Shown: positions 21,459 to 40,286 of the stretch, in pieces
Layout: each line of letters starts with the position of its first letter
Numbering within the stretch: the first letter of the stretch is position 1
NCBI RefSeq assembly: GCF_000011185.1
Contig: NC_002689.2
Span: 186,001-250,000 of the forward strand
Length of the DNA stretch: 64,000 nucleotides
Origin: Thermoplasma volcanium GSS1
GTDB taxonomy: Archaea > Thermoplasmatota > Thermoplasmata > Thermoplasmatales > Thermoplasmataceae
Direction: 5' to 3'
The notes under the pieces: generated by a model
What the model saw: only the letters and a program-made list of their open reading frames with translations
What the model was told of the DNA's origin: nothing
The model's database searches: none
Position numbers and translations under genes: made by a program

Positions 21459-22121
21459 ATGGCAACTTTAATAAGAAAGGAAGACAGAGAATATTTGAAG
21501 GGTGAGTTTGACAAATACCTGAAAAATGATGTGGATTTAGTAGTTTTCACATCTAACGATGAAAACTGCAGATACTGCAAAGAAACTGTACAGCTTGCTA
21601 CTGAAGTTTCTGAGATAAACCCGAAGATCCACCTCAAAGTATACAACTTCGATGAGGACAAGGATCAGGTAAAGGCATATGGTGTTGAGAAATATCCTGC
21701 AACTATCGTTTCTAAGGCTGGAGTCGAAGATGGAAGAATAGTCTATTACGGATTGCCTTCAGGATATGAATTCGGGTCTCTGATCGAAGACCTAAAGAAC
21801 GTTTCTGTTGGTGATGCTGATGTTTCTTCAAAGGCAGCAGAACTTATATCAAAGATCGATAAGCCTATAACGATAAAGGTCTACGTAACCCCTACATGCC
21901 CATATTGCCCAAGGGCTGTAGGTACCGCCCATAAGTTTGCATTAATGAATCCAAACATAAAGGGTGAAATGATCGAGGCCTTGGAGTTCGAAAATGAAGC
22001 AGAAGAAGTAGGGGTATCAAGCGTACCACATATAGTAATAAACAATGATGTGACGTTCATAGGCGCATATCCTGACGACCAGTTCGCTGAATACGTAATG
22101 GAAGCTTACGATCACCAGTAA
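21459..22121 (+). CDS. pdo: protein disulfide oxidoreductase (double thioredoxin fold)
   Basis: A 220-residue protein with two thioredoxin/glutaredoxin-like domains, each with an active CxxC: C37-R-Y-C40 and C147-P-Y-C150, with cis-Pro segments KYPAT and SVPHI. PDO proteins make and shuffle cytosolic disulfides in thermophilic archaea and can reduce peroxiredoxins. The frame is open to 21357, but a TATA element TATTTAAATATT around 21430-21440 lies about 25 bases before the ATG at 21459, and homologues start at MATL-like N-termini, so 21459 is chosen. A 2-Cys peroxiredoxin that could be a partner is encoded at 44.9 kb. Confidence 0.92.
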   Translation: MATLIRKEDREYLKGEFDKYLKNDVDLVVFTSNDENCRYCKETVQLATEVSEINPKIHLKVYNFDEDKDQVKAYGVEKYPATIVSKAGVEDGRIVYYGLPSGYEFGSLIEDLKNVSVGDADVSSKAAELISKIDKPITIKVYVTPTCPYCPRAVGTAHKFALMNPNIKGEMIEALEFENEAEEVGVSSVPHIVINNDVTFIGAYPDDQFAEYVMEAYDHQ

Positions 22122-22286
22122 TTTTGATTCAGTTATTCTTTTTTAATAATTAGATTTCTTTATGCACCGTGAAATGCTTGATTATTTAAAATTATTAGAA
22201 AACGATTGTATTGAGATCAATTAGAATAATTTCCATAGTTATTATAAATAATATTTTTCTATCCAATAAAACGTAAGAACAACTGC

Positions 22287-23075
22287 ATGGATTGGGAGAC
22301 TCTGAAAATTCTTATATATATTGAACACTGTGGTCCGGCAAAAATATTATTAGAGAGTTATGGAGAATATCCTTAAAATGATTGTTATTCTAATTATACA
22401 GAGCTTCCAAACCCTTTCGCGTAAATCGAAGAAGATCGATCTGCACTCAATAAATAAGAAGATAACACATCTTTATTCTTTAAAATCCATAGCAGCAGTT
22501 GATTAGTTCATGATGTACATGCAAGTACTCAGCTACAGAAAGGAGAAAAAAACAATAAATATAAGGGTCCTGATTCTAGATTGTCTAGTATAACTAAGGT
22601 ACAAACAATGGCAGGAAATGCCATGTTACCTTGGCCATGTATTCACTTTTTATAATGGAGTGAAAGGTCACTAAAAAACGCGCATGATTCGAAATATGCA
22701 AATAACATGATCGATTCAATTAGGTATTTCTCGTACTTGTTTGTAGATTCTTTGTACGATGCATCAGAGATATATGATTATGTACTGGAAAATACTCACG
22801 TAATTCCAATAATCGATGCGAGCGAGAGGAGAGGCATTGTGACAGAAAAATTGCCAGACAACAGCAGAATAGATATCAATTTAAGAAGGAAGTATCCCTC
22901 CTTATATTCCCTGAAGTTTGGGATAGAAAGAATGTTCACCATACTTGAAATATCGTATAAATTGAGCATATGGGATGTGAGGAATCGATCCTATAATACT
23001 GCAGTTGGCCTGAAGATAATTGTATATAATTTAATCATTATGTCAAACATGAAATTGGGAGAAAATATAAGATAG
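22287..23075 (+). pseudogene. decayed DDE transposase (IS4/IS5-like) remnant
   Basis: The last part, 22707-23075, is an open frame of 122 codons. It contains a DSLYD motif and, near its end, YSLKFGIERMFTILEI, the Y-(2)-R/K-(3)-E-(6)-type C-terminal block of DDE transposases, followed by an R-x-R segment and a hydrophobic tail. Upstream (22287-22700) short frame fragments such as MDWETLKIL and RKSKKIDLHS are separated by stops and frameshifts and suggest the N-terminal half. No terminal repeats could be placed. It lies immediately 5' of the sugar ABC operon. Bases 22122-22286 hold nothing recognisable beyond AT-rich spacer. Confidence 0.55.
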
Positions 23076-23199
23076 ATCACGAATATTCTTTCTTGCTAAA
23101 ATCGAGACATTCTAAAATTAAGCCATATTGAATAAATGGGGTTAATATTAGTCAATATAGTATATCCTTTGTATATGATACCAGATATAGTAGTAAAAA

Positions 23200-23208
23200 T
23201 TAAATATA
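23200..23208 (+). promoter_or_regulatory. TATA box of the sugar ABC operon
   Basis: TTAAATATA is centred about 26 bases before the ATG at 23230, giving a leaderless first gene. Just upstream, 23158-23185 holds an imperfect palindrome-like GTATATCC/GTATATGATAC stretch that could be an operator. Confidence 0.5.
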
Positions 23209-23229
23209 GTATTTTAATTTGTTATTACT

Positions 23230-24789
23230 ATGGAAAGCAGTAGTTCTGATATTAAACCTAAAAGAAAGATTTGGTCATATATAGTTATAGTGGTTGTTTT
23301 GGCTGCTGTAATCGGTGGTGTAGTCTATTACTACTCTACGCTCCCCCATCCAACAAAGCAAGTAACAATTACAGTCGCAGCTCCTGTTTATTCTTCATCC
23401 GCTACAGATTGGGAAAACTTTATAAATAATGCGACGAAAAGCTGGCAAGCTGAACATCCTAACGTTAAGGTAGAATTTATAGGTCCACTGGGGGCTAGTA
23501 GTGAAGGTCAATATTATACTAAGTTGGATTTGTTAACCTCATCATCATCAACTGCGCCTACTGTAATGTTAGAAGATATGTTTTATACAGCAACTTATCA
23601 GTCAGAAGGTATATTAGCACCTTTAAATTCATACATAAACTCAAGTTTCTTTAATAATATTTTTCCATCAGCTTTGGGTCAGATGACTATTGGTGGTATT
23701 CACTACGGCTTACCTGCCCAAGTTACGGATACATTGATATATTATAATATAACATTACTGCAAAAAGCAGGTGTGATACCATCAGATAGCACTACATGGC
23801 AGCCGACAAATTGGACTGAAATAATAAATGCTGCAAAGCAAATAAATAGCACTCTTGTACCTAATGATCCAGGTTTGATTCCACTGAATATATACGAGGG
23901 TGTTAAAGGAGATGAGGCATCTTCATTCACGGGATTTGAAGGGCTATTGTACGGCACTGGATATGGTTTATACAATTTTACAGATCATAAATGGTACGGT
24001 TATAGTCCAGGGTTAAACGAAACATTTGAATTCTATAAAACAGTCTTTGGAGAAGGTCTTGCAACGCCAGCACTGAGTGCGACTCCATACATAACAGCAG
24101 GACAGTATATGCAGGAAGGAAAATTAGCAATAGATATAGATGGGAGCTGGATGTATGGATATCAATGGGCACCTGGGGCACAACATCCTATAAGTAATTT
24201 CTCAAAATATATAGGAGTTGCTAAAATACCAACCTACAGTGGGCAAGCTCCAGGATTCAACACAATGGTTGGTGGATGGGGCTGGGCTATGTACAATGGT
24301 ACACCTTCATCTGAAAAACCACTAGTCGCCTCATTCATGATGGCCCTTGATAATACATCTAATCAGATATTGATAAATGAGCCGGGTCAAGCCCTAGCTG
24401 GCGGATTACCAACTGCAAAGAATGCCGTAAACAATCCGAATTTCAGTAAACTTATGCCGACAGACCCATCCCTAGATACATTCTTTACAAATATACTTAA
24501 ATATGGCAGTTACAGGCCTCCGGTAGCTACATATCCTAAAGTTTCATATGTGCTTCAGGAAGTAATGGGGTACATTGTGAGCGATGGTTATAGTGTTTCT
24601 AAAGCAGCATCAACGTATAATTCATTACTTACATCTGCAGTGGGAGCGTCTAATGTGATGTCAGCCATCACATCTTATACACCATCTTTCATTGCTGATC
24701 ACCGCAATTTCGAGAGCAGTCAATATAATTATCTACTTAGTCTATATTTAAATACTTCCTTATTATTTTTAAGCCAAATCTTCTGGTGA
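23230..24789 (+). CDS. sugar ABC transporter substrate-binding protein (family 1)
   Basis: A 519-residue extracytoplasmic solute-binding protein. A short basic cytoplasmic tail (KPKRKIW) precedes one membrane anchor (about residues 15-37), then a Ser/Thr/Asn-rich binding domain. Family-1 features include ASSEGQYYTKLDLL, the GIHYGLPAQVTDTLIYYN segment and a GSWMYGYQWAPG ligand-pocket region rich in Trp and Tyr. Many N-x-S/T sites would be exposed. It binds an oligosaccharide, probably an alpha-mannoside given the GH38 gene downstream (inference). Base use is markedly AT-richer than the core genes. First gene of a four-gene operon. Confidence 0.9.
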   Translation: MESSSSDIKPKRKIWSYIVIVVVLAAVIGGVVYYYSTLPHPTKQVTITVAAPVYSSSATDWENFINNATKSWQAEHPNVKVEFIGPLGASSEGQYYTKLDLLTSSSSTAPTVMLEDMFYTATYQSEGILAPLNSYINSSFFNNIFPSALGQMTIGGIHYGLPAQVTDTLIYYNITLLQKAGVIPSDSTTWQPTNWTEIINAAKQINSTLVPNDPGLIPLNIYEGVKGDEASSFTGFEGLLYGTGYGLYNFTDHKWYGYSPGLNETFEFYKTVFGEGLATPALSATPYITAGQYMQEGKLAIDIDGSWMYGYQWAPGAQHPISNFSKYIGVAKIPTYSGQAPGFNTMVGGWGWAMYNGTPSSEKPLVASFMMALDNTSNQILINEPGQALAGGLPTAKNAVNNPNFSKLMPTDPSLDTFFTNILKYGSYRPPVATYPKVSYVLQEVMGYIVSDGYSVSKAASTYNSLLTSAVGASNVMSAITSYTPSFIADHRNFESSQYNYLLSLYLNTSLLFLSQIFW

Positions 24790-24796
24790 AGTTAAA

Positions 24797-25687
24797 ATGC
24801 AACGTATTTCAGGAAGAAACTCAATATTGAAAAAAAACGCTATTTTTTTGATATTGATTCCGTCTTTTATTTATTTAATTATTTTTTTTATATACCCGAT
24901 ATTTTTGTCTTTTAAATATTCATTCACCAATTTATCATTATATGATATTAATAAGTATAGCTTTATTGGATTTACTAACTATGTAGATTTATTTAAGAGT
25001 GATCTATTTTTAAAATCAATATATATAACGATTATATTCTTGGTTGTTTCTGCAATAATAGGGCAGATGTTTTTAGGTTCTATACTTGCTTATCTACTAA
25101 CACTGACGCACAAGTATTTTAAAACGGTTGTAACTACAATTATACTTATTGCTTGGGCAACACCACAAGTTACGGCAGGCATAATGTGGTATAGTACGTT
25201 AAGTTATATACCAGAAGGAACTATAAATGTTATACTAAAGAATATGGGGTTTCATCCTATTGATTTCTTCTCCATTCATAATGCAATATATTCAATTATT
25301 ATAGCTAACATTTGGATAGGTTTAGGTTTCTCCGTGTTAATATTCCTAGGTGGAATACAGAGCATTGATCCTTCTATAATAAAAGCATCATATATTGATG
25401 GTGCAAAGCCTTTTAGAAGGTTCTTTTCTATAATATTCCCACTTCTAAAGACAAATATAATCACAGATTTGTTATTGATAACTTTATTCACGCTCGGAAC
25501 ATTTACATTAATATATGTACTTACTGCAGGTGGACCTGCGGGCAGTACCGAGTTGCTTACAATTTATCAATATGAAACTGGTTTCTCCCTATTCTCACTT
25601 GGTTTAGCAAATGCAATTGGTGTTATTATTATTATCATTGCTTTAGTGCTTTCACTAATATACCTTAGATTCATAAAGGTGAGTTGA
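24797..25687 (+). CDS. sugar ABC transporter permease, MalF/UgpA-like
   Basis: A 296-residue permease with six predicted membrane helices and the EAA loop as ASYIDGAKPFRRFFSIIFP in the cytoplasmic coupling region. It forms a heterodimer with the next permease and docks on the ATPase. A Shine-Dalgarno GGTGA overlapping the upstream stop lies about 8 bases before the ATG. Codon use is strongly AT-biased like its neighbours. Confidence 0.92.
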   Translation: MQRISGRNSILKKNAIFLILIPSFIYLIIFFIYPIFLSFKYSFTNLSLYDINKYSFIGFTNYVDLFKSDLFLKSIYITIIFLVVSAIIGQMFLGSILAYLLTLTHKYFKTVVTTIILIAWATPQVTAGIMWYSTLSYIPEGTINVILKNMGFHPIDFFSIHNAIYSIIIANIWIGLGFSVLIFLGGIQSIDPSIIKASYIDGAKPFRRFFSIIFPLLKTNIITDLLLITLFTLGTFTLIYVLTAGGPAGSTELLTIYQYETGFSLFSLGLANAIGVIIIIIALVLSLIYLRFIKVS

Positions 25688-25688
25688 A

Positions 25689-26495
25689 ATGGATATTAAA
25701 AAATTCGTAATATATATATTTTTATCATTGCTCGGCGTTTTGTTCTTAATACCATTCATTTGGCTAATTAATGAAGCTTTTAGTCCATTAAACGATATCG
25801 GCTTAAAATTTCCATCATATTATACTTTAGTTCCATTTTATAACGTTATGACAAATAAAATATTCGTAAACTCAATATATGAAGGTCTAATACAATCATT
25901 CGGGGCAACATTTTTATCAGTATTGTTTTCTGTTGGTCCAGCGTATATATTTTCTAGGAAAAGATTCAGATTTAGAATACCTCTGCTATTAGGTATATTG
26001 CTTCTAACTGGTTTTCCGGTGTTTTCGTTATTAATACCAGAATACGTATTTTATGTCAAAACGTCACTGTACAACAACTTAATTGGAGTCATTTTATTTC
26101 TGGGAGTATTAAATGTACCAATAGATATATGGATATTAAAGAATTCATTCGATCAAATTCCTTCTGCTATTGAAAACGCCTCATATATAGACGGAGCCTC
26201 TAGTTTTAAATCAATGCTTTATATTTTTTTACCACTTGCTACACCGGTTTTGGCAGTTTTGATAATATTGGATTTCGTGATCAATTGGGGAAACTTCTAC
26301 GTTCCTTACATTTTACTTTCTTCAGCACGTTTATTTCCAGTATCGGTTGAAATATACAGTTTCTTTGGGGCGTATAATGTGAAATATAATGAGTTAGCAG
26401 CATTTTCTATAATATACACTGTTCCTGCTGTAATTTTATACATATTCGCACAAAAATATATGATAAAAGCACTATCTGGAGGAATAAAAGGATGA
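25689..26495 (+). CDS. sugar ABC transporter permease, MalG/UgpE-like
   Basis: A 268-residue permease with six membrane helices and the EAA motif ASYIDGASSFKSMLYIFLPLATP. It starts one base after the previous stop, with AAGGTGAG five bases upstream. It completes the transmembrane channel of the importer. MalG-type partners are short and lack the extra N-terminal domain, as here. Confidence 0.92.
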   Translation: MDIKKFVIYIFLSLLGVLFLIPFIWLINEAFSPLNDIGLKFPSYYTLVPFYNVMTNKIFVNSIYEGLIQSFGATFLSVLFSVGPAYIFSRKRFRFRIPLLLGILLLTGFPVFSLLIPEYVFYVKTSLYNNLIGVILFLGVLNVPIDIWILKNSFDQIPSAIENASYIDGASSFKSMLYIFLPLATPVLAVLIILDFVINWGNFYVPYILLSSARLFPVSVEIYSFFGAYNVKYNELAAFSIIYTVPAVILYIFAQKYMIKALSGGIKG

Positions 26496-26537
26496 CATTT
26501 TTAACCTTTTGAATATAGGTATACTGAGGTGACCAAA

Positions 26538-27590
26538 ATGGTGAACGTAAGAGTAGTGGATGTATACAAATCATACGGTAAAGTACAAGTATTGAAAGGT
26601 ATAAATTTCAATATAGAAGACGGGGAATTTTTTGTATTGCTAGGGTCTTCCGGCGCTGGAAAATCAACTTTATTAAATATTCTCGCCGGTTTGGAAGCTG
26701 TAGACAGTGGAAGTATCTTCTTTGATGATAAGATTGTTAATGACTTGCCACCTGTAGAGAGGGGGGTAGCTATGGTTTTTCAAAATTATGCATTATATCC
26801 CCACATGACAGTATATAAAAATATGGCGTTTCCATTGAAAATGCTAAATTATAAAAAAGATAGTATAGATCGAATCGTCAAAAAAGTAGCTGAAACTTTA
26901 GATATAACATGGTTACTTAATAGATACCCGCGTGAATTATCTGGAGGGCAAGCACAACGAGTTGCACTTGGAAGAGCATTAGTACGTGATCCAAAGATAT
27001 TTTTATTGGATGAACCACTAAGTAATCTAGATGCGAATATAAGATCAAAGATAAGAAACGAATTAAAATTAATGCAAAAACAATTAAATAAAACATTTAT
27101 TTATGTAACACATGATCAAATGGAGGCAATGTCACTTGGAGACCACATAGGAATTTTACACAATGGCGTATTGGAACAATATGGAAGGCCAATAGATATA
27201 TATAATAACCCGATAAATGAATATATTGCAACCTTTCTTGGAGATCCAGAAATAAATATGCTATCATGCATAAAATATCGGGATGTATATGAATGCGATG
27301 GCTCCATAAAATTTAAATTGGATTTAGATGATAAAAAGATTACATTAGGAATAAGACCAGAAAATATATATCTTCATAGACAAAATGATAATGACATAGA
27401 AGGAAAAATAATACCTAAAGTCTCAGAATTGTTAGGTTCGCATACATTGATAATTGGATCTGTAGAAAATAAAGAAATAAGAATCGTTACTGAAGAAACA
27501 AATATAAGCATAGGGAAGGAAATTCCAATATACATTAATTTGAATAAATGTCTTATATTTAATGAAAAAGGAGAAAATATTAATAAATAA
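26538..27590 (+). CDS. sugar ABC transporter ATP-binding protein, MalK/MsmK-like
   Basis: A 350-residue ATPase. Walker A is GSSGAGKST (36-44), the Q-loop QNYALYPHM, signature LSGGQAQRVALGRA, Walker B FLLDEPLSNLD and the switch His in THDQ. The C-terminal third (about 235-350) is the OB/TOBE regulatory domain of the MalK/UgpC family, with GIRPENIYL. A GTG at 26529 also opens the frame, but GAGGTGA at 26526-26532 is correctly spaced for the ATG at 26538, which is chosen. The 3' end overlaps the convergent small secreted-protein gene by 11 bases. Confidence 0.93.
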   Translation: MVNVRVVDVYKSYGKVQVLKGINFNIEDGEFFVLLGSSGAGKSTLLNILAGLEAVDSGSIFFDDKIVNDLPPVERGVAMVFQNYALYPHMTVYKNMAFPLKMLNYKKDSIDRIVKKVAETLDITWLLNRYPRELSGGQAQRVALGRALVRDPKIFLLDEPLSNLDANIRSKIRNELKLMQKQLNKTFIYVTHDQMEAMSLGDHIGILHNGVLEQYGRPIDIYNNPINEYIATFLGDPEINMLSCIKYRDVYECDGSIKFKLDLDDKKITLGIRPENIYLHRQNDNDIEGKIIPKVSELLGSHTLIIGSVENKEIRIVTEETNISIGKEIPIYINLNKCLIFNEKGENINK

Positions 27591-28045
27591 CAGTCTCAGG
27601 TACACTGCCAACCAAATGTAACGAGATATAGCCATTATAGTAATAGTTAGGTGATTTGATAGTTATATTTAATATTCCTATATTTTCTTCAAGAGATCCA
27701 ATAAATTTGCCTTGACTAGTGCCGTATTTTATATACGTATTAAAATAGAATATCCACCCCAAAACACAGAATCCAGATGTTTGAGTATATACATAGTTTA
27801 TTGATATATTTGAATTGAAAAGTATTGTAATATTAAAGTCGGAACCGGAATTTATATGATGTGGAAAAATGATTTTCGTATAGCTTTGGTTAATATTGAC
27901 TTGTCCTATGTAAACATTACTTAGTATATCTTCCTCTGGTTGATCAGTACTTTTGCCCCAATGATAATAGACATAGCCTGACATTACGATTATTACTGAA
28001 AACGTAACAATAACAAATAAAGCAACTAATTTTTTGTAATTGAGC
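27580..28045 (-). CDS. small membrane-anchored extracytoplasmic protein, unknown
   Basis: A 155-residue protein. It has an N-terminal signal or anchor helix (about residues 8-28) and then an Asn/Tyr/Ser/Ile-rich beta-type domain with several N-x-S/T sequons. I recognise no family. The start is a GTG at 28047-28045, about 25 bases from a TATA-like TTTTTATATC on the minus strand, so it is probably leaderless. It converges on the ABC ATPase gene, overlapping its stop. Its AT-rich composition matches the island. It could be an accessory surface protein for sugar capture, but nothing in the sequence shows that. Confidence 0.6.
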
Positions 28046-28087
28046 ACTAGTAAAATAGCACATTTTGATATAAAAATATTCCTGCCT

Positions 28088-29243
28088 GGTGTCCAAATCT
28101 TGTATTTTTATAAAGGATGCCTCACATGGAACATGTCCATTTCTCGTACATGCATTTATATTATCCTTTTAGTGTTGTTGGATGATATTTATTCTCCTAC
28201 TTATCTTATGTTCGTTAATTCGATGGGATTAGTAGAATGTATCGATCTCCTTATTTATTCGGACAATAGTATTTTAGGAGTGAGTTTAAGTTCTTCCCCA
28301 TATTGTATATAGGCCTAGTATACTTCTCTGGCCATTTATTTTTGAATTCATCGAACATGCTTATTGCTTCTTCTTTAGTTCGTAATAGCAATATTTACTT
28401 AAGACCGGAATAGATTTTATTTATATTGTGATCTCTTACATTTGATTGGAAATTCCTTGATGCATGTATTGTACGTAAATAGAAATAAGCTCTAGGATAC
28501 AATTCTTTGATCTCTTCCCCTATTTCGGGCATGTCCACTATGAACAAAGCTGTTGGTTGAAGCCTCTCTTCATTAGATCGATCAATACATTTCCATATGC
28601 TGTATTATTTCCTATGGGATTCATGTAGAATCCTAGGATTTTTTATTATCCGTTATATCGTATCACCATTGCAAATATTACATGTCAGTTTGTACTATAT
28701 CCCTTCTCAACGAAAAGAACATTGAATACATGAAAATTCCAACTTATCTTTTATACAATTGCCGTTGTAAACATTTCTTATTTCCAGAACTGTTATGTCT
28801 GTTATTCGTGATATTATTGATCTGCTGTATCTATTGTGAAATGATTATTCTAGGATATCAGCAATCTTCCCTGTTGACATATCCTTTGAATACATTGATA
28901 TTATTCTGTGCGTACCAATATTCCTCTAATACTTGTCTAACAAAGCAGTATGGAATTCATTTCTACAATCCGTACGCACATGTATCATCGATATTTCCAT
29001 ACCTTGCTCCAAGATCTCTTTCACAATTTCTATGTCTATAGTTCTCTTCTATAAATATCCGAAGATCGCTTCATTGGAGATTCCATAAACTCTTTAAGAG
29101 CCGATCCCACTATCTCATATACCTCTCTATCCAGTCCTTCCACTAGATCTTGGTTCCTCTTGGAAAAGGTATTTTTTTGTTTTTCATGAAATTTTTCTCA
29201 TGATCATAGTACTATTTCTATAAATTACACAAAATTCAGGATT
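28088..29243 (-). mobile_element. decayed IS256-family (mutator-type) insertion sequence
   Basis: Reading the minus strand in shifting frames recovers ordered fragments of an IS256-type transposase. They are DREVYEIVGSALKEFMESP, then a TDCRNEFHTALLDKY block, ISMYSKDMSTGKIADILE, ILGFYMN, LIDLMKRGF, a LFIVDMPEIGEEIKELYPRA block, HASRNFQSNVRD and, near 28230, RRSIHSTNPIEL (the IRRxIYTTNxIE motif). At least eight stops or frameshifts interrupt it. The ends look like imperfect inverted repeats, about 28090-28113 (TCCAAATCTTGT then TTTTTATAAA) against 29215-29241 (TCCTGAATTTTGTG then TAATTTATA). The element cannot make transposase. Confidence 0.72.
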
Positions 29244-29258
29244 CTATATTAAATAATC

Positions 29259-29267
29259 TTAAATAAC
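29259..29267 (+). promoter_or_regulatory. TATA box of the alpha-mannosidase gene
   Basis: CTTAAATAA lies about 23-25 bases before the ATG at 29286, giving a separate leaderless transcript from the ABC operon. It sits just outside the IS256 right end. Confidence 0.5.
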
Positions 29268-29285
29268 ATGACAATATAATAACAT

Positions 29286-32200
29286 ATGCTCAAAATAAGT
29301 AAACGATCAATAATACTTAGAAAAATATATGAAATTATATCCTTAAGCATAATTGAAATAAAGGAAATAAGCAATATAAAATTAAACAATAACAATATAA
29401 AAATACCGTATTCAACTTTTCAAGATCCTAATGAAATTAAGGATTTCTCTTTCGAAGTAAATTTAGATCAACTTGATGATGGTTATAAGTATCTCTTATC
29501 AGTTGAATTATCTGGAAATGCAGAATTAATTATTGATGGTATGCTGGATCAATCAATAGATGCCGGTCATACTTATTCAATATTTGATGGTCCAAAACAT
29601 GAATTTGTCCTTAGAGTGGGTAGTAGGGAATTATTTGGAAAAAATTCTTGGTATTTAAATATAAAATCTATAAAAATAATAACGATAAATTATAAGTTAT
29701 TTAAACTTGGCTTGAATTTTTTACAATTATTTAAGTATGCAGATACTACAAGCAGGTCTAAGCTTAGGATTTACAATTATATGTTGAAATATCTGCTTAC
29801 ATTATATGAATCCCCGAATATAGAACAAATTATGGGAATAGGTTCAATATTTCTTAATAAAAACAAAGAAGAACTTGTAGATTTTTTATCTGATGTATAT
29901 GGTTATCCTATAATTAATCATATGATTAAAGATTATCCAAGGAAAGATATAAATCTCTATAAGTATACTAATGTATTAGAACATATAATTAAAACAATAG
30001 CGGCTAGTGATAATAAGTATAAAACCAATAAAGTTTTTGCCTTTGGTCATTGCCACATAGATGTTGCATGGTTATGGCCATATTCTGAGACCTTAAGAAA
30101 AATAGAACGATCATTTCTAAACGTTTTAAAACTTTACGAAATGGGTTTTAATTTTGTTTTTGCACAAAGTACAGCATTATATTATTATGAAATAGAAAAA
30201 AGAAATGTTTACATCTTCAATAAAATAAGAAGACTAGTTAATGATGGCAAATGGTTCATTGTTGGTGGTATGTGGGTTGAATCTGATACAAATTTGATTA
30301 GAGGAGAGTCACTAGCACGTCAATTGCTATACGGTCAAGGATATTTCAAAGAAGTTTTTAACAGATATTCGAGGATTGCGTGGTTACCAGACACTTTTGG
30401 TTTTTCCGGTCAGTTGCCGCAATTGTTTGTTAAATCCGGCATGGAGGTCTTTGTAACTCATAAACCAATGTGGAATGATACAACCGAATTTCCGTACCAT
30501 TGCTTTAAGTGGTTTGGGATAGATGGTACTCCAATTATTACTAGCATAGTCAATTTAAGCTATAACGAAAACCTTGATTTTGATTCAGTCGTAAATGCGT
30601 ATAAATCTAATAAAAATAAGAATTTACCAATTACATATCTGTACGGGTATGGTGATGGTGGCGGAGGGCCTGATATCGAAATGATGTTAAAACTAGAGCA
30701 GATAAAAGATTTGCAATTCATGCCGAATGTAAATGGGAGCTTTTCTGAACAAGAATATATAGATAGCTTTAAAGAATTTTACAAGGAAATGCCCAGTTAC
30801 TTCGGTGAAATTTATCTAGAAAATCACCGCGGAGTTTATACTACGAATCTTGAAATTAAAAAATACGTTGCAAATATCGAAGACAAATTGATTATGCTTG
30901 ACTTTATAAATTCAATGATTTATAACTCTAAATTGTATATAAGCAATACTAAAAAATTATGGTATGGCTTATTAAAGGCACAGTTCCATGATATATTACC
31001 AGGTTCAGCCTATTACTATGCATATGAGGAAGCGTTTGCTGAATTAGATGATATAATATTAGAGATAGATAAGATTACAGAATTTGCAATAAGGAAATTT
31101 ATAGAAGATAAAAATATTAAGAAGGGCTTAATTGCTATAAACAATAGTCAATACGAGTTTAACCATTTTGTGGAAATAGACAACTCATTAGCATCTGAAA
31201 TTCCCGCAGATAAAGTAGTTAATGTTGGCGATAAGAAATTTGTTTTAGTCAATGTACCGCCATTAGGTTTTTCTGTAATTAACACAAATACTGAAAATAA
31301 ATTTGAAAACGAGATTAAAATTAGGAAAATAAAAGGTAAGTATATAATAGAAAACAAAATAATAAAGTTAATAATTAATTCAGTAGGTATTATATCGTTC
31401 TTTTATAATAATAAAAGATATATCAAAAAAGGAAACATAGTGAAGATATATAATGATATACCCGCAAATTTCGATTCATGGAATATAAACGCACAAAATA
31501 TACGGAAAGATTTATTTATGGACGAAATAAAAACTGAGATAAGGGTAATCTCAAAAAATATAATAGGTATGGTCGAAATTAAAAAAATATTTGAAGATGG
31601 ATCTTCTATAATACAAAAAATTATAATTAGACCCGGTTCTAGTATAGTAGAGTTTGAAAACACGTTATTACTAAAAAATAGGGAAAAACTTGTTAAAGTA
31701 GTATTTCAACCATATTTTCATGCGGATTATATTAAGAGAGAAATCCCATTTGGATACATAATGACGAAATTAAATAGTAAAAATGAAAAAACTCGTCCTG
31801 AATTTCCTGCACTGCGGTACGTAGACTATAGTGACAATAGCCATGGGTTTTCAATATTGTCGAGAGAATCTCATGGATACAGTTTTATAAATGGGGAACT
31901 AGGAATAAGTATAGCTAAGGTTCCGTTATATCCTAATCCATTTTCAGATAGAAATGAAGTTAGAGAGAAATTTTATGTTTATTTGCACAATGAATATTAC
32001 AACATCTATAAAGATGCAAATTTTGTTTTTAATCCTATAAAATTGCACGTAAATGAATATGACGGGGATAACGTCAGAGAGAGTTTATTTAATTTTTCAG
32101 GAGAAAACATAATACTTGAAAATATAAAAGTGGCAGAAGACAATAGCGGTCTAGTTACAAGGTTTTATAATTGTTCCGATAAAATGTCTACACTCGAGTT

Positions 32201-32327
32201 AAATTTTCCAGGGGGTGATATTTATGAGACGGATATACTTGAAAATAAACAGGTAAAATATAATAAAAATATTATATTTAAACCATTCGAAATCAAGACA
32301 TTATTGATAGAAAAAAATAATTTGTGA
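29286..32327 (+). CDS. alpha-mannosidase, GH38
   Basis: A 1013-residue glycoside hydrolase of family 38. The zinc-site motif GHCHIDVAWLWPYSET and the nucleophile region WLPDTFGFSGQLPQ (Asp at about residue 369) are intact. GGMWVESDTNLIRGESL and DGGGGPD, further active-site strands, follow, then the long beta-sandwich C-terminus. No signal peptide is visible, so it is probably cytoplasmic and acts on alpha-mannosides imported by the ABC system upstream. AT-rich codon use matches the island. In eukaryotes GH38 trims glycans; in bacteria and archaea it usually serves catabolism. Substrate linkage is not predictable. About 450 bases follow without a gene. Confidence 0.93.
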   Translation: MLKISKRSIILRKIYEIISLSIIEIKEISNIKLNNNNIKIPYSTFQDPNEIKDFSFEVNLDQLDDGYKYLLSVELSGNAELIIDGMLDQSIDAGHTYSIFDGPKHEFVLRVGSRELFGKNSWYLNIKSIKIITINYKLFKLGLNFLQLFKYADTTSRSKLRIYNYMLKYLLTLYESPNIEQIMGIGSIFLNKNKEELVDFLSDVYGYPIINHMIKDYPRKDINLYKYTNVLEHIIKTIAASDNKYKTNKVFAFGHCHIDVAWLWPYSETLRKIERSFLNVLKLYEMGFNFVFAQSTALYYYEIEKRNVYIFNKIRRLVNDGKWFIVGGMWVESDTNLIRGESLARQLLYGQGYFKEVFNRYSRIAWLPDTFGFSGQLPQLFVKSGMEVFVTHKPMWNDTTEFPYHCFKWFGIDGTPIITSIVNLSYNENLDFDSVVNAYKSNKNKNLPITYLYGYGDGGGGPDIEMMLKLEQIKDLQFMPNVNGSFSEQEYIDSFKEFYKEMPSYFGEIYLENHRGVYTTNLEIKKYVANIEDKLIMLDFINSMIYNSKLYISNTKKLWYGLLKAQFHDILPGSAYYYAYEEAFAELDDIILEIDKITEFAIRKFIEDKNIKKGLIAINNSQYEFNHFVEIDNSLASEIPADKVVNVGDKKFVLVNVPPLGFSVINTNTENKFENEIKIRKIKGKYIIENKIIKLIINSVGIISFFYNNKRYIKKGNIVKIYNDIPANFDSWNINAQNIRKDLFMDEIKTEIRVISKNIIGMVEIKKIFEDGSSIIQKIIIRPGSSIVEFENTLLLKNREKLVKVVFQPYFHADYIKREIPFGYIMTKLNSKNEKTRPEFPALRYVDYSDNSHGFSILSRESHGYSFINGELGISIAKVPLYPNPFSDRNEVREKFYVYLHNEYYNIYKDANFVFNPIKLHVNEYDGDNVRESLFNFSGENIILENIKVAEDNSGLVTRFYNCSDKMSTLELNFPGGDIYETDILENKQVKYNKNIIFKPFEIKTLLIEKNNL

Positions 32328-32795
32328 TTGTAAATAACATGCTTCCTACATCTATTAACAGTCTATAATACAGGAGCGCGATCATGTGTGTTAATAAGAG
32401 TTAGATGAATAAGTAGCTCTGTATGCTTAAGTGAGTTTAAACAACGATAATACTCGCATAAGTATTCCTGTTTAGCAAAACATATACCTATTTTATTTAC
32501 AATGGATAATAGTGGTATCCAAGAAGCTCTAGTTTGCGGCAAGAGAGAACATAATAGTGTTATAATCAATAATAGATCATATATGTAATAGTGTTTTTAG
32601 ATATAATTGCGGAGCTAATTGTTTTATTTAGTTAATGAAAGTGCAAATATTTTTGGTTATATTCCATTTCAAAAAAATAAAAGATACCCAGAATACCCAT
32701 AATTATCTTGTAGTATTAATTACTATCCGCATATTGAAACAAATGATAAAATAGAATAAACACTACCTAGGTTATTTTAAATTATATATAGTTCA
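32328..32795. other. gene-poor AT-rich spacer at the island's right edge
   Basis: No supportable gene. A 68-codon frame on the minus strand (32363-32569) has irregular composition, no promoter or conserved pattern, and is probably chance. The base composition is as AT-rich as the island, while the HxlR gene beyond it returns toward core composition. Confidence 0.5.
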
Positions 32796-33164
32796 TTAAC
32801 TCTTAAGTCGATAATTTTCTGTATTAACTGCGCTTTGGCTTTCATTATTGAGAATCCATCTTTCTCCCCATTGCCCTAAGTCGTTTAGTACATTTCTAAG
32901 TTCCTGCCCTTTCTCGGTAAGTCTATATTTTACTCTAAAAGGCTGGGTCGAAACCACATCTCGATAAATAATCTTTTTTTCTGTAAGCCTTTTTAGCGTA
33001 ACGGAGAGCGTTTTAGGGCTCATCTTTCCAGCAAGTTTTAGGATTTGATTGAAACCTAGATCATTATCTGAAAGAAGCCTAATTACTAATAGATCATTCT
33101 CTTTCCCGACTTCCCTTATGGCCTCTATTATAGGGCACGTACTTTCATCCATGGATCCCACCAT
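32796..33164 (-). CDS. HxlR-family winged-helix regulator
   Basis: A 122-residue MarR-like HxlR protein: CPIIEAIREVGKEND at the N-terminus (the conserved redox-capable Cys position), helix-turn-helix FNQILKLAGKMSPKTLSVTLKRLTEK, and wing RVKYRLTEKGQELRNVL. HxlR proteins often sense aldehydes or oxidants through a conserved Cys near the N-terminus. It is divergent from yceI-pirin and has an inverted repeat TATCTAC...GTAGATA touching its start codon, a likely autoregulatory site. Two start ATGs (33164 and 33152) are possible. Confidence 0.88.
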   Translation of the reverse strand: MVGSMDESTCPIIEAIREVGKENDLLVIRLLSDNDLGFNQILKLAGKMSPKTLSVTLKRLTEKKIIYRDVVSTQPFRVKYRLTEKGQELRNVLNDLGQWGERWILNNESQSAVNTENYRLKS

Positions 33165-34713: not shown

Positions 34714-35772
34714 TTAAACTTCGACGTTCTGTCCCAACTTTCCCCTCTCGCCAGGCGTCCATATATTAATCACTAAGTTTGTTAATTTTATGTCTTCCAT
34801 CCTTGCTGTTTTCCCACCAACAGAGTAGATTCTGTCTCCGTCCTTTATGAAGAACGTCTGCTTGAAGCCTGGAACAAGATCTGTTCCAGTGATAGTACCG
34901 TTTATCTTGACAGGCCCATTAAAGCCAATGCCTTCTAGGGATCCGGTTATACTGTATGATCTCTTAAGAAAGGAATTTATGGCTTCGCAGCTGAGCCATG
35001 CTGTGGTAAACTTCAGATCAGGTTTTTCTGGAAAATCATGGTATATCTCCGATGGCCCCCATATTGTGTGATAAAAGTAATAATTGAGTATATGTATTAA
35101 TTCGCTTTCATTGAAGTAAAGTGCATAACCTTCAGAATCTTCTTTGCTCTCCACATTGATTATACCATCATTCCTATCAGAAATTATAACTTGTGAAGCG
35201 CTACCTGGCCTTTTCTTTATTACTATGTCGTCAGGCAATGTCTTGAGGAAATCGCTCTCAGCGTCAGGGAATACAACTAAGACTACGGTTAAACCCTTCT
35301 TTACCGCATCAATAAAATATCGTTTCAAATATCTGAGATTTTCATAATTTAGTGAGGTAATAATTTCGTATTTAGAATTTGTTATAACGTCTTTCATTTT
35401 TTCGCGTATTTGGAAATTATTCTTTATCATCCATAAATACGGAGCTGTTTCTTTAAATTTTTTTTGCTTCTCTATATAAGATTGTATGCGTTGCTTGTAA
35501 TCCTTTATTTCTATTAGCTTTCTATCTATGAAGTTATCTACCGGTACGGCCCTGTAAATTTTCTTTTTTCCAGGGCTTACCTCAACAGCACCTTTTGATT
35601 CAAGACTTTCGAAAATATCGTATACTCTAGGCTGTGGAACTCTGGAAAGTTTGGCAGTTTCTGTGGCGCTCTTTGGGCCATAAATGAGCAGGGTCTTGTA
35701 TATTTTTATCTCATAAGGCGTAAGGCCAAGCTTTGATAGATACGAAAAAGCATCTTCTTCCTCATCGCTCAT
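34714..35772 (-). CDS. TrmB-family transcriptional regulator
   Basis: A 352-residue protein: N-terminal winged helix (about residues 8-75; SATETAKLSRVPQPRVYDIFESLESKGAVE), a helical linker, a phospholipase-D-like central fold, and the C-terminal TrmB effector domain (about 250-350) with IRYSVGGK-like GDRIYSVGGKTAR. TrmB proteins bind sugars and repress or activate sugar ABC transporters and glycolytic genes. It is not next to the mannoside transporter, but GH13 and the ABC system lie within 12 kb on either side. It could control one of them (inference). It is convergent with the pirin gene. Confidence 0.88.
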   Translation of the reverse strand: MSDEEEDAFSYLSKLGLTPYEIKIYKTLLIYGPKSATETAKLSRVPQPRVYDIFESLESKGAVEVSPGKKKIYRAVPVDNFIDRKLIEIKDYKQRIQSYIEKQKKFKETAPYLWMIKNNFQIREKMKDVITNSKYEIITSLNYENLRYLKRYFIDAVKKGLTVVLVVFPDAESDFLKTLPDDIVIKKRPGSASQVIISDRNDGIINVESKEDSEGYALYFNESELIHILNYYFYHTIWGPSEIYHDFPEKPDLKFTTAWLSCEAINSFLKRSYSITGSLEGIGFNGPVKINGTITGTDLVPGFKQTFFIKDGDRIYSVGGKTARMEDIKLTNLVINIWTPGERGKLGQNVEV

Positions 35773-35805
35773 GAATACATATTATTTCTACCAATTAATA
35801 TTTTC

Positions 35806-36171
35806 TTACTCGCCTAATAACACTTTGGCTGCCTTTATGGGGACGATACATATCATCCTTGTATCTTCCTCTGCATTCATTCCGTGTTCCACATTTGGCG
35901 GTATGAATATAAAATCATCTTGCCCAGCCATATACTCCTGTTCGCCTAGCTTTACTTTAACTTTCCCTGATATTATGAATATTTCGTGTTCGTAGTCGTG
36001 GTGATGGTGAGGCGTCGACTTTCCTTTTTGGACAGTTATGAGCCTCATTGAGTAATTTTTTGCACCGTTTTTATGCGTAATTAACCATTTAATAACTGCA
36101 CCACCATCCATAACGTCTCCTTTGACCTCTTCAGAAGATTTTACATAACCATTGGAAACTTCTGCATTCAT
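35806..36171 (-). CDS. cupin-domain protein
   Basis: A 121-residue single-domain cupin. Motif 1 is TPHHHHDYEHEIFIISG and motif 2 is FIFIPPNVEHGMNA, giving a 3-His/1-Glu metal site. The substrate is unknown; small cupins act as isomerases, dioxygenases or metal-binding regulators. It lies upstream of trmB, transcribed in the same direction but separated by 33 bases, and is divergent from the molybdopterin oxidoreductase gene. Confidence 0.88.
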   Translation of the reverse strand: MNAEVSNGYVKSSEEVKGDVMDGGAVIKWLITHKNGAKNYSMRLITVQKGKSTPHHHHDYEHEIFIISGKVKVKLGEQEYMAGQDDFIFIPPNVEHGMNAEEDTRMICIVPIKAAKVLLGE

Positions 36172-36255
36172 GCTTTTACATGCGGTCTTTTTATAAATAG
36201 ATTTTTCAGCCGAGATGTTAAAGTAACTCTATATATACTGTTTAAATGTTTCTCT

Positions 36256-36861
36256 ATGGATAGAATATCTGTTAAAAATCCTGGACAACGCTATATTAAG
36301 AATTTCATAATATACGATGCCTTAGGCGAACCTGACATAGATATAAGAAAATGGAAATTATGTGTGAATGGCTTGGTGGATAAGGTAAAATGTTATTCTT
36401 TTTCTGATTTACAGAGCATGAGACAGCTGGAGTACATATCTGACTTCAACTGCGTGACTAGGTGGTCTATAAAAGACATCGTCTGGAAAGGGCCATCGTT
36501 AAAGGAAATAATAGAAAATAGCGGGCCGAAGAGGGAAGCACGATGGGTTATGTTTTGGTCGGCGGATGGTTATTCAACGCCTGTACCGATTGAATATGCT
36601 ATGGATGAGAAGGCTATTATAGCCATATCGATGAACGGAGCTCCGTTAAAGAAAGAAAATGGATATCCTGCCAGGCCTTTTCTCCCCCAACTGTACGGAT
36701 GGAAGAGTGCAAAATGGATCACAGAAATTGAGCTTATTCCAGAGTATAAGGATGGATACTGGGAAGCCTATGGATATGCTGAAGTAGGCCGTATAGAGGA
36801 AGAAGAAAGATTTAAAGGAGATGAATGGAAAAGAATAAGAAGAAACTCAAAGATGGCATGA
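36256..36861 (+). CDS. molybdopterin-dependent oxidoreductase, sulfite oxidase/YedY-like
   Basis: A 201-residue protein consisting of only the molybdopterin-binding domain. The molybdenum-ligand Cys is in FNCVTRWS, followed by IVWKGPSLKEI, and the C-terminal RPFLPQLYGWKSAKWITEIEL motif of this family. No heme, dimerisation domain or Tat signal is visible, so it should act in the cytoplasm. That is unusual, because YedY is exported. A sulfite, sulfoxide or other reductase role is possible. Promoter AT-rich sequence at 36215-36250 is shared with the divergent cupin gene. Confidence 0.88.
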   Translation: MDRISVKNPGQRYIKNFIIYDALGEPDIDIRKWKLCVNGLVDKVKCYSFSDLQSMRQLEYISDFNCVTRWSIKDIVWKGPSLKEIIENSGPKREARWVMFWSADGYSTPVPIEYAMDEKAIIAISMNGAPLKKENGYPARPFLPQLYGWKSAKWITEIELIPEYKDGYWEAYGYAEVGRIEEEERFKGDEWKRIRRNSKMA

Positions 36862-36876
36862 ATATAAATAGTACGA

Positions 36877-38106
36877 TCATTTGTTGTTTAACCAGGAAGA
36901 TACAGCAGCAACCATAAGAATTGCAGACGATATTAAGAAGATATCAAGAATATTTTCGACCTTTACGTAAACTAGGTTCGCTATTATCGGGCCTACTGCC
37001 GTTGAAATGCTATTAAATAAAGTATAGAGCGAGGTTCTCTTTACTCTGCCTTCTCCACCAGAACCACTTACTACAAAGTTGAATCCAGATAATGAATACA
37101 CAGAAACGGGTATACTTGATAAGCTGAATAGTATCATAGCTTCGATAATATTCCTTACAAATATCCAAGCAAAAACAGTCATTGACAGAATAATAGAAGA
37201 AATAAGTAGCGATTTTCCATATCCATATCTAGAGATAAGGTTGTAACCAAGCTTCTGAGATGCAATGAAAACTAAGCTTCCGGCTATAAGTAAAAAGGTA
37301 TAAATAATAGAGCTAGAATTTAAATAATCCTTTCCTAATATAAAAAGTAAGATATAAGGTTGAGAGAAATTGTATCCGAGTGCAAAAATAGATACTGTAA
37401 ACAAAAGAATAAAAAATTTTTGGGAGGTGTAAGTTTTCTTCGATGTAATTTTAACATCATTGGTCTTTGCTTCTGGTATTTTTTTCATGATAGCTATTGA
37501 AGCTGAAGAAAATAGAAAGGAAACCGTAAATATGGTGAAGTAGTCGAACCCATGGAATTTTATAAATATAAATACTAGCATTGCTATAAAATAACCTATT
37601 AGGCCAGAAGCCCTCATAGCCATGTTTCTAACCGAAAAATATCGATCTCTTTTTTCCTCAGATATCAGCCCTGGAACCCAAAGAGTCCATGTGGTTCCTG
37701 ATAAAGATGCAAAAAATGCCCTAATTATAAGTAGTGCTATGAATATATAGAGGAAGTACGCCGGCCTGAACAGAATCAATATCGCAATTAAAAGCCATGG
37801 TAACCTATCAAGAAATGTAGTAATTATTGTTACAACTTTTAAGTTGTCTATCTTTTTGAGAATCCAATATGCTGAGAGCTGAGAAAACGGAACTGCAAGC
37901 AGAGGTATTCCAGTGATAAAGCCTACTGGAGCAACAGTACCGAATAAAAATATGGCAAGGGGTATAACATATTGCTGAGTTAGTGAACTGTATATTGCCC
38001 ATAATACTCCATCGCCTATTGAAAGATCCATTACTCTTTCTTCAGTCGTTCCACTTCCCAAGAATAACCGTATAATAACGTCCTTAATTGAAGAAGCAAA
38101 TACCAT
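36877..38106 (-). CDS. major facilitator superfamily transporter
   Basis: A 409-residue polytopic protein with about twelve hydrophobic helices and a loop 2-3 with positive residues (KKIDNLKVV). Charged MFS signatures are weak, so drug or metabolite export cannot be told apart. The start ATG at 38106 is preceded by an AT-rich stretch. It converges on the molybdopterin oxidoreductase gene and is divergent from the GH13 gene. Confidence 0.8.
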   Translation of the reverse strand: MVFASSIKDVIIRLFLGSGTTEERVMDLSIGDGVLWAIYSSLTQQYVIPLAIFLFGTVAPVGFITGIPLLAVPFSQLSAYWILKKIDNLKVVTIITTFLDRLPWLLIAILILFRPAYFLYIFIALLIIRAFFASLSGTTWTLWVPGLISEEKRDRYFSVRNMAMRASGLIGYFIAMLVFIFIKFHGFDYFTIFTVSFLFSSASIAIMKKIPEAKTNDVKITSKKTYTSQKFFILLFTVSIFALGYNFSQPYILLFILGKDYLNSSSIIYTFLLIAGSLVFIASQKLGYNLISRYGYGKSLLISSIILSMTVFAWIFVRNIIEAMILFSLSSIPVSVYSLSGFNFVVSGSGGEGRVKRTSLYTLFNSISTAVGPIIANLVYVKVENILDIFLISSAILMVAAVSSWLNNK

Positions 38107-38207
38107 TTCCCGTGGTGTATATTTTCAACAAATAAATCATTACTTGATAAATGCTTACAAAATTCAGAAACAAAGTGTTATAAAAGGTCATTTTCTATTT
38201 GTTATCA

Positions 38208-40058
38208 ATGGTAGAGGTAAAAATAATTAAATCAGATGGGTTCTTTAATGAAGTGCTTATTTCTTCGGACAAAAAAATTCACTTTGACACTGCTTATGCG
38301 GAAGGTGATTTTAATTGTTTTGGGGAAGGGAGTATTGTCTCCGAAACAACAGATGATTTAAAGTTTAAAATTGCAAATCTTATACCTGGAAAGTACCATT
38401 TCAAGATAGCTATCGATCAGTATAAAATCCTTAGAGAAGCTGAGAATAGATCCGGCTCATACTCGTTTTCAATATGGTTGGAAAAACCTTATCACAATCC
38501 AGATTATGCACAGTTTTGCGCGATTATTGACAAAAAACTTATGGACGTTCGAATAGCAGTACCAAAACACAGCATTTCCGTATCTATTTTTACGAAAGAT
38601 ACTTTAAAACCTGTATATTCCCGAAGAGCATCTTTTGATACTTTTGATGCAGTTGAGTATGTTTTTGATGGTATGTCAGATTATTATTTTGAAGTAGATA
38701 ATTCCAGGTTACCTAAGGAAGGATATTTCTCACCAAAAGTGCACATCGAACACGAAGGCGGATCAAAGATCATTTATCACATATTTCCAGATAGGTTTTT
38801 TAGAGTAGGCCCGCATCTGCCAACACTATCAAGATGGGGAGATAAACCTACTTTTTCAAGCTTCTTTGGAGGAAATTTGAGGGGGATAACCGAAAAAATA
38901 GGTTATATTAAGGCCCTCAATGTTGATACGATATACCTTAATCCAGTATATAAAAGCAAGTCGAATCATAGGTACGATGTTGACGATTACTTCTCTATAG
39001 ACGGATTGCTTGGCGGTGAACAGGATTTTATCGAGTTAGTCAACGAAGCTCATGAAAACGGTATTAAAATAGTTGCAGACATGGTGTTCAACCATACCTC
39101 AACGGATTTCCCCTATTTTTTGGATGCCCTTAAGAACGGAAAGAACTCTAAATACTGGAATTGGTACATATTTCATGGTGAAGGCGCAGCAGTATTTGAT
39201 GGTAGAGCAAAAGGAAAAACAAAACCATTATACGAAACTTTTATGGGAGTTGGGCGCATGCCTAAGTTAAATCACAAGAATGCAGAGGTAAGGAAGTTCT
39301 GCATAGACGTTATGAAATACTACAAGAACAAATTTGGAGTAGATGGCTTTAGATACGATGTTGCACACTCAATCTACCCTGAATTCTTTTTAGAAGCTGT
39401 CAAAGAATTTGGAAATGAGATGCTGCACATAGGGGAAGCATGGTGTCTTCCATCAATGTTCATGCTATCTGGATACTGGAATAGCTTTACAAATTATTAT
39501 CTAAGAAATGCGATTATAAAGTTTGTCCGTGAAGAAATAAATATAACCGAGTTTTATAATATGATTCAAAATATGATAATATCTTATGGTCCGCTTATTC
39601 AGCAGAATGTTATGAATATACTTGATTCACATGATACTGAAAGGATATTAAGGGCATTCAAGGGAAATAAAAAAAAGGTCAAGCTTGCCTATTCAATATT
39701 ATTTATGTTCGATGGATTTGCTACGATTTACTATGGGGATGAAGTTGGTCTTGACGGGGGCCGAGATCCTGATGACAGAAGATGTTTTCCTTGGGACAAT
39801 ATGGATGAAGATATGCTTCAATTCCTAAAAAAACTTGGAGAAATCAGAAGAATGTATCACACAGGTAGTGCCGGAATAATAACTGTAGAAGAGACTCAGG
39901 AATGCAAATATATAACTAGGTTAAGCGGTGAATCGATAATAAAGGTTGCAATTGCCAAGAAGCCAGTTACTTTAGAAGGTGAAATAATCTTGAGCAGTTG
40001 TGGAGAAAAGACAATTTATGAGGGAGATTTTGCTTTGTCTATAGCGAAATATGCATGA
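38208..40058 (+). CDS. GH13 alpha-amylase family enzyme (neopullulanase/cyclomaltodextrinase-like)
   Basis: A 616-residue enzyme. An N-terminal beta domain of about 180 residues resembles the CBM34-like module of neopullulanases. The barrel motifs are ADMVFNHTS, GFRYDVAHS with nucleophile D384, GEAW with acid/base E410, and LDSHDTER with stabiliser D476. No signal peptide is visible, so intracellular maltodextrin hydrolysis is likely. The longest frame opens with TTG at 38199, but TATA-like GTTATAAAAGG at 38177-38187 lies 26 bases before the ATG at 38208, which is chosen as a leaderless start. About 230 bases of AT-rich spacer follow before the tRNA. Confidence 0.92.
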   Translation: MVEVKIIKSDGFFNEVLISSDKKIHFDTAYAEGDFNCFGEGSIVSETTDDLKFKIANLIPGKYHFKIAIDQYKILREAENRSGSYSFSIWLEKPYHNPDYAQFCAIIDKKLMDVRIAVPKHSISVSIFTKDTLKPVYSRRASFDTFDAVEYVFDGMSDYYFEVDNSRLPKEGYFSPKVHIEHEGGSKIIYHIFPDRFFRVGPHLPTLSRWGDKPTFSSFFGGNLRGITEKIGYIKALNVDTIYLNPVYKSKSNHRYDVDDYFSIDGLLGGEQDFIELVNEAHENGIKIVADMVFNHTSTDFPYFLDALKNGKNSKYWNWYIFHGEGAAVFDGRAKGKTKPLYETFMGVGRMPKLNHKNAEVRKFCIDVMKYYKNKFGVDGFRYDVAHSIYPEFFLEAVKEFGNEMLHIGEAWCLPSMFMLSGYWNSFTNYYLRNAIIKFVREEINITEFYNMIQNMIISYGPLIQQNVMNILDSHDTERILRAFKGNKKKVKLAYSILFMFDGFATIYYGDEVGLDGGRDPDDRRCFPWDNMDEDMLQFLKKLGEIRRMYHTGSAGIITVEETQECKYITRLSGESIIKVAIAKKPVTLEGEIILSSCGEKTIYEGDFALSIAKYA

Positions 40059-40286
40059 ATTATATCTTATACTATTGAATGCAGTAAGTATAATTTATTA
40101 AAAACATGTATGTTAGTTCTGCCACAATAGTATGATATGAAGCATATTCAAAAGAGGCGATTTTTTCGATATGTAGGCATCAATGAACGAAAATATTTTT
40201 TCATAAAATACGATTTATATATCGTTATAACTATTTATGATACGTGAAAAACTTCATAATGAATCGCTTAAGATCAGATTTAAAGT

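Follow-up and report, generated by a model that had tools for sequence, protein, structure and literature searches.

The window analysed here, a stretch of 64,000 nucleotides (bases 186001-250000) of the single-contig Thermoplasma volcanium GSS1 genome (1,584,804 bases), carries a sugar ABC transporter and an alpha-mannosidase in one A+T-rich block, and the question is where these genes came from and which sugar they would serve. The original prediction had been an acquired island for the import and hydrolysis of alpha-mannosides, and all the genes that it named were found where it had placed them, with open frames. We consider it fairly probable that the block is a saccharide-uptake cassette coming from a Ferroplasma-like archaeon, which would import a short alpha-linked, mannose-containing oligosaccharide for trimming by a cytosolic GH38 enzyme.

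The limits of the inserted DNA were defined against the genome of a congener (G100), in which the site is a 95-bp intergenic gap. DNA similarity to this empty site ends at position 22121 and restarts at 32865, and the end of the HxlR gene is at 32796. The inserted block, to which no strand is assigned, therefore covers about 22122-32795 and extends further than the limits of 23230 and 32327 that had been expected. It is missing from all four other Thermoplasma genomes, and the GH38 gene and any close copy of the binding-protein gene are likewise missing from the 4/4 genomes of the genus that were searched. At the very same site, three of them (G098, G099 and G101; loci L069, L070 and L071) have another cassette, formed by an ABC transporter and a giant secreted protein of 1632-1654 residues, whose G098 copy, the one that was scanned, contains GH57 and glucodextranase-C domains. 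Although this cassette shares the chromosomal site and the transporter superfamily with the island, both are non-orthologous (23-32% for the binding protein and permeases), and the cassette of the congeners has a host-like GC and a partner of the amylase type (GH57/glucodextranase). No ortholog of its binding protein exists in the genome of T. volcanium, where the search gave only a weak cross-match to the island binding protein, and therefore one sugar-import cassette sits in the place of the other, either by replacement in one step or by loss followed by insertion. G100 carries neither of the two cassettes at the site.

Downstream of the block, the region 34714-40055 encodes a TrmB-family sugar regulator, an MFS transporter and a GH13 amylase, and the first two adjoin the GH57 cassette in the congeners. 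The regulator (34714-35772, minus strand; PF11495, E 1e-61, and PF01978) shows 77-79% identity in the three congeners whose locus includes it and is part of the ancestral flank, outside the island. The earlier statement that there is no close sugar regulator inside the island is thus literally true, with this gene lying 2.4 kb downstream. Taken together, these neighbours suggest that the site had served sugar use in the genus before the island arrived.

The GC content across 22122-32795 is 0.311, compared with 0.394 ± 0.029 elsewhere (z -2.9) in a reference of 888 equal windows out of 464 kb of the same genome, the lowest of which reached 0.284. The GC3 values of all island genes were within the lowest 1-4% of 348 genes, and the gene of the binding protein was merely mildly A+T-rich. 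An alien codon usage was also considered and rejected, as synonymous-codon preference was in the normal range of the genome and nothing remained beyond GC3. Hence, of the contrast anticipated with the core genes, the part concerning base composition held and the part concerning codons shrank to A+T richness. Neither an integrase nor a tRNA target nor mobility machinery of its own was found for the island in the 64-kb window, whose sole tRNA gene is at 40285, and transposases are represented by dead remnants only. One of these remnants, a decayed IS256/Mutator-type insertion sequence at about 28090-29250 (minus strand), cuts the block as had been predicted. It was recognized by its translated match to a transposase of another locus (L135; PF00872, E 5e-87), its closest copy is a further dead element of T. 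volcanium itself (L157 12450-13584, 80%, with 464 kb sampled) and an intact relative, a Transposase_mut gene, lies in the Ferroplasma-type genome G061. The second element, announced as a dead transposase at the border, was also seen (22707-23075, plus strand), but its identification as a probable dead DDE (IS4-like) transposase relies on a DDE_Tnp_1 match with E 0.0049, under the Pfam cut-off. This remnant has a 65% DNA match to a stretch of G061 lacking a corresponding ORF and partial matches elsewhere in its own genome.

The presence of a complete family-1 sugar ABC transporter was confirmed by Pfam for every component. A membrane-anchored solute-binding protein (23230-24789; SBP_bac_1, PF01547, E 1.2e-19) is followed on the same plus strand by permease 1, of the MalF/UgpA/GlcT type (24797-25687; BPD_transp_1, PF00528, E 1.5e-16), permease 2, of the MalG/GlcU type (25689-26495; PF00528, E 6e-12), and a MalK/UgpC-type ATPase (26529-27590; ABC_tran, PF00005, E 2e-34). 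One SBP_bac_1, two BPD_transp_1 and one ABC_tran protein in a single operon (23230-27590) constitute the CUT1 layout, as in MalEFGK, UgpABCE and the archaeal GlcSTUV. However, the scores of the island proteins stayed below the equivalog cut-offs for all named members that were shown; thus the ATPase obtained 385 bits against the NCBIfam UgpC model (cut-off 432). Its regulatory-domain scores were also below the cut-offs (OB_MalK, 17.3 bits against 27; TOBE_2, 17.8 against 21). The island further departs from these members in its membrane-anchored binding protein and in an additional anchored protein of 155 residues. The solved chain nearest to the binding protein is 1eu8, a trehalose/maltose binding protein (E 2e-11). 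With a pLDDT of 43, the AlphaFold prediction for the binding protein was too poor for comparing pockets and was set aside. When the regions upstream of the binding-protein genes of nine loci were inspected by eye, no convincing common operator was found.

The GH38 alpha-mannosidase (29286-32327, plus strand) has 1013 residues and is Ams1/MAN2C1-like (PF01074, PF09261, PF07748 and PF17677), with the N-terminal catalytic, middle and C-terminal domains in order and every Pfam score above the cut-off. Its core region matched Ams1 (6lz1) with E 2e-85 by phmmer. The residues H257, D259, W262, D369, Y426, D457, H568 and D569 correspond to active-site residues of Ams1 and did not vary among 8 relatives; the metal ligands H290, D292, D402 and H615 of Ams1 and its D493 align with H257, D259, D369, H568 and D457, respectively. 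By this intact active site, the predicted hydrolysis of alpha-mannosides is well supported. A function as mannosylglycerate hydrolase (MngB) was rejected since the PRK09819 score was 63.5 bits for a cut-off of 1138. Ams1 and MAN2C1, of GH38 class II subtype C, act on free oligosaccharides in the cytosol (PMC7609781), and the island enzyme shares with them the order of domains, the metal and catalytic residues and a long N-terminal region that precedes the catalytic part. This region, of 240 residues, has the right length for the N-terminal jelly-roll and four-helix bundle of the tetrameric Ams1/MAN2C1 subtype but is unmatched in sequence, with no match to Ams1 before residue 243, and the relationship is distant. 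As no signal peptide was evident on reading the N-terminus by eye, the enzyme is presumed to be cytosolic like both of them, although its substrate would arrive by import and not from the ER.

The transporter family, at E < 1e-20, was confined to one family among the 390 genomes of the phylum that were searched, and the nine loci carrying it were read. In all nine, the gene of the binding protein is followed by those of permease 1, permease 2 and the ATPase. GH38 adjoins the transporter in five (G000, G061, G066, G089 and G042 contig 51), on a side and in an orientation that vary between genomes, and according to the tree the copy of G042 contig 51 is a separate GH38 lineage, so that two lineages pair with the transporter. 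Six of the 9 genomes with the transporter have GH38, compared with 6/108 of the others (Fisher p 2e-5, a value in which kinship is ignored). GH31 is a more frequent neighbour (7/9 loci, all seven with the alpha-glucosidase-type motif WLDMNEP), and GH15 adjoins the transporter in the Ferroplasma-type loci of G061 and G066. T. volcanium lacks the cassette GH31 and keeps GH38 alone at the locus, while G095 has GH31 and no GH38.

The 155-residue protein is the least known element of the island. Its gene (27580-28047, minus strand) is convergent with the ATPase gene, whose end it overlaps, and the protein gave no Pfam or NCBIfam match. Nevertheless, 7 copies were found in 117 genomes, all of them convergent and directly beside the ATPase gene of this transporter (7/9 transporter loci), and no confident copy away from this ATPase was detected in the same 117 genomes. 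The relatives are at L041 4985-5455, L042 16001-16513, L043 5885-6340, L044 14213-14656, L045 3498-3977 and L048 12724-13170. The seven conserved copies indicate that the ORF is a real gene, and its strict linkage to the ATPase argues for a role in the transporter. The structure model (pLDDT 79) has a transmembrane helix at residues 4-30 followed by an eight-stranded beta domain, giving a membrane-anchored beta-sandwich. The best fold matches, to FimA-type pilins (TM 0.3, E 0.008), were not considered meaningful. The 155-residue protein probably assists the transporter as an accessory component exposed on the outside. As a more tentative idea, it may be a novel extracellular subunit dedicated to a family of sugar ABC transporters specific to acidophiles, for instance for presenting glycans or docking the binding protein, and the cassette a swappable unit of glycan uptake that displaced a non-homologous importer at one locus within the genus; this combined proposal is possible, yet we would not consider it the likely outcome.

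The acquisition of the block by T. volcanium is well supported, as the original prediction maintained. Absence from the congeners and an empty site in one of them, composition, excess identity to a Ferroplasma-type genome and placement in trees all point in this direction, and the same gene order with equal composition was not found throughout the relatives. It could be argued that the common ancestor of the whole family already had the cassette, that repeated losses followed and that T. volcanium acquired nothing, and the patchy presence of the cassette over several genera of one family, with absence outside, agrees with this. We regard such a history as most improbable, because it does not explain the identities to G061, which are 70.5% for GH38, about 78-79% for the binding protein, 80% for the ATPase and 83% and 85% for the two permeases. 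A baseline made of 400 kb of G061 together with its cassette region gave 106 reciprocal best pairs, whose identities have a median of 49% and reach 74% at the 95th percentile, and the core gene of PEPCK is 72% identical to those of the congeners and 50% to that of G061. Both trees also place T. volcanium among Ferroplasma genomes, and its sister species all hold the other cassette or nothing at the site. T. volcanium and G061 came out as sisters (support 100/100) in the tree built from the four transporter proteins, and an exclusive, Ferroplasma-only clade of G061 and G066 was rejected by the AU test (p 4e-10). In that of GH38, T. volcanium falls inside the Ferroplasma pair, the trio being supported by 100/100, but for GH38 alone the AU test did not reject a clade of only the two Ferroplasma genomes (p 0.07). 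In G061, too, the cassette has a low GC content (0.31 compared with 0.37), and therefore this composition is a property of the cassette and not of Ferroplasma. An independent survey reported that, in composition, the genomic islands of F. acidiphilum come closest to those of T. volcanium (PMC5473848).

Regarding the sugar, the import of alpha-mannosides was judged plausible because of the pairing with GH38 and still unproven, as GH31 is a commoner neighbour than GH38 and the closest binding protein of solved structure is the trehalose/maltose one. Judging from these gene neighbours, a substrate containing mannose and glucose is favoured: the pairing of two GH38 lineages with one transporter speaks for a mannoside, and the frequent vicinity of GH31 makes glucose likely in the same or related substrates. 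From the same data, the transporter could instead take alpha-glucosides of the maltodextrin or trehalose type, with GH38 as an unrelated passenger. GH31 in seven of nine loci, the closest solved binding protein, GH15 in two Ferroplasma-type loci and the GH57-linked sugar transporter that sister genomes hold at the very site would all fit this alternative. We think it rather unlikely, since two separate GH38 lineages ended beside one transporter clade, T. volcanium retains GH38 without the cassette GH31, and in G042 the cassette copies with and without GH38 (L043 and L044) are distinct paralogs, which suggests diverged cargo. Still less likely, in our opinion, is that the cassette recycles the glycans of the cell itself, by lipoglycan or N-glycan turnover, rather than feeding on those of others. 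Ams1 and MAN2C1 do process free oligosaccharides of the cytosol (PMC7609781) and a glucose-mannose lipoglycan has been reported for the order (PMC12448462), but the congeners, presumably with similar surfaces, do without the cassette, and accessory, mobile genes suit nutrition better than housekeeping turnover.

On the preferred reading, uptake of a mannose-containing oligosaccharide, the anchored binding protein would capture a short alpha-linked oligosaccharide bearing terminal mannose, and the two permeases with an ATPase dimer would carry it into the cytosol. There, the Ams1/MAN2C1-type GH38 enzyme would cleave alpha-mannose off the non-reducing end, with D369 as the putative nucleophile, D457 as the acid/base and the metal bound by H257, D259, D369 and H568. 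In the relatives, alpha-glucose may be taken off the same or similar oligosaccharides by GH31, joined in Ferroplasma by GH15. Surface glycans of archaea or fungi with mannose and glucose would be likely sources; an oligosaccharide of the glucose-mannose lipoglycan type would suit GH38 plus GH31, and yeast mannan would suit GH38. The earlier suggestion that lysed archaeal cells may supply the glycan would agree with the lipoglycan reported for the order (PMC12448462). Joint expression of transporter and GH38 is not assured in T. volcanium because the dead insertion sequence separates them, and the changing side of GH38 relative to the transporter among genomes also speaks against this reading.

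A comparable arrangement is that of the acidophilic archaeon Picrophilus torridus, of the same order, in which the genes of ManA (GH38, AAT42676) and AglA (GH31, AAT42677) are clustered and both enzymes have been characterised (Angelov et al. 2006, as cited in PMC7469102). By that description, these neighbouring genes for intracellular GH38 and GH31 enzymes resemble the Ferroplasma-type cassette and differ from T. volcanium in possessing the GH31. Since this cluster is known since 2006, the island is a new, well-documented case and not a new kind of system. Another intracellular archaeal GH38 enzyme, the alpha-mannosidase of Saccharolobus solfataricus, is also on record (Cobucci-Ponzano 2010, listed in PMC7469102). 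What the island adds is a documented exchange of sugar-uptake cassettes among wall-less acidophilic archaea, for which there are a vacant site in one congener, a different occupant of the site in three others and a genome that resembles the donor. In addition, it singles out a conserved protein without known family that travels with one transporter family, and it gives a concrete prediction, the import of a mannose-containing oligosaccharide, that can be checked on purified proteins.

Some further copies were observed in the relatives. The distant resemblance to GH38 seen in G060 (29% across 116 residues, interrupted by stops) was put down to chance. Contig 7 of G097 (L051) has a GC of 0.58 and a GH38 split into several frames, which may be assembly error or decay because the assembly is 50% complete. 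In G064 (L247), of the Ferroplasma group, which is without GH38 and its transporter, cassette-type GH31 and GH15 adjoin different ABC transporters. Finally, the two diverged cassettes of G042, one on contig 51 with GH38 and GH31 and the other on contig 6 with GH31 only, form a natural pair for the study of specificity.
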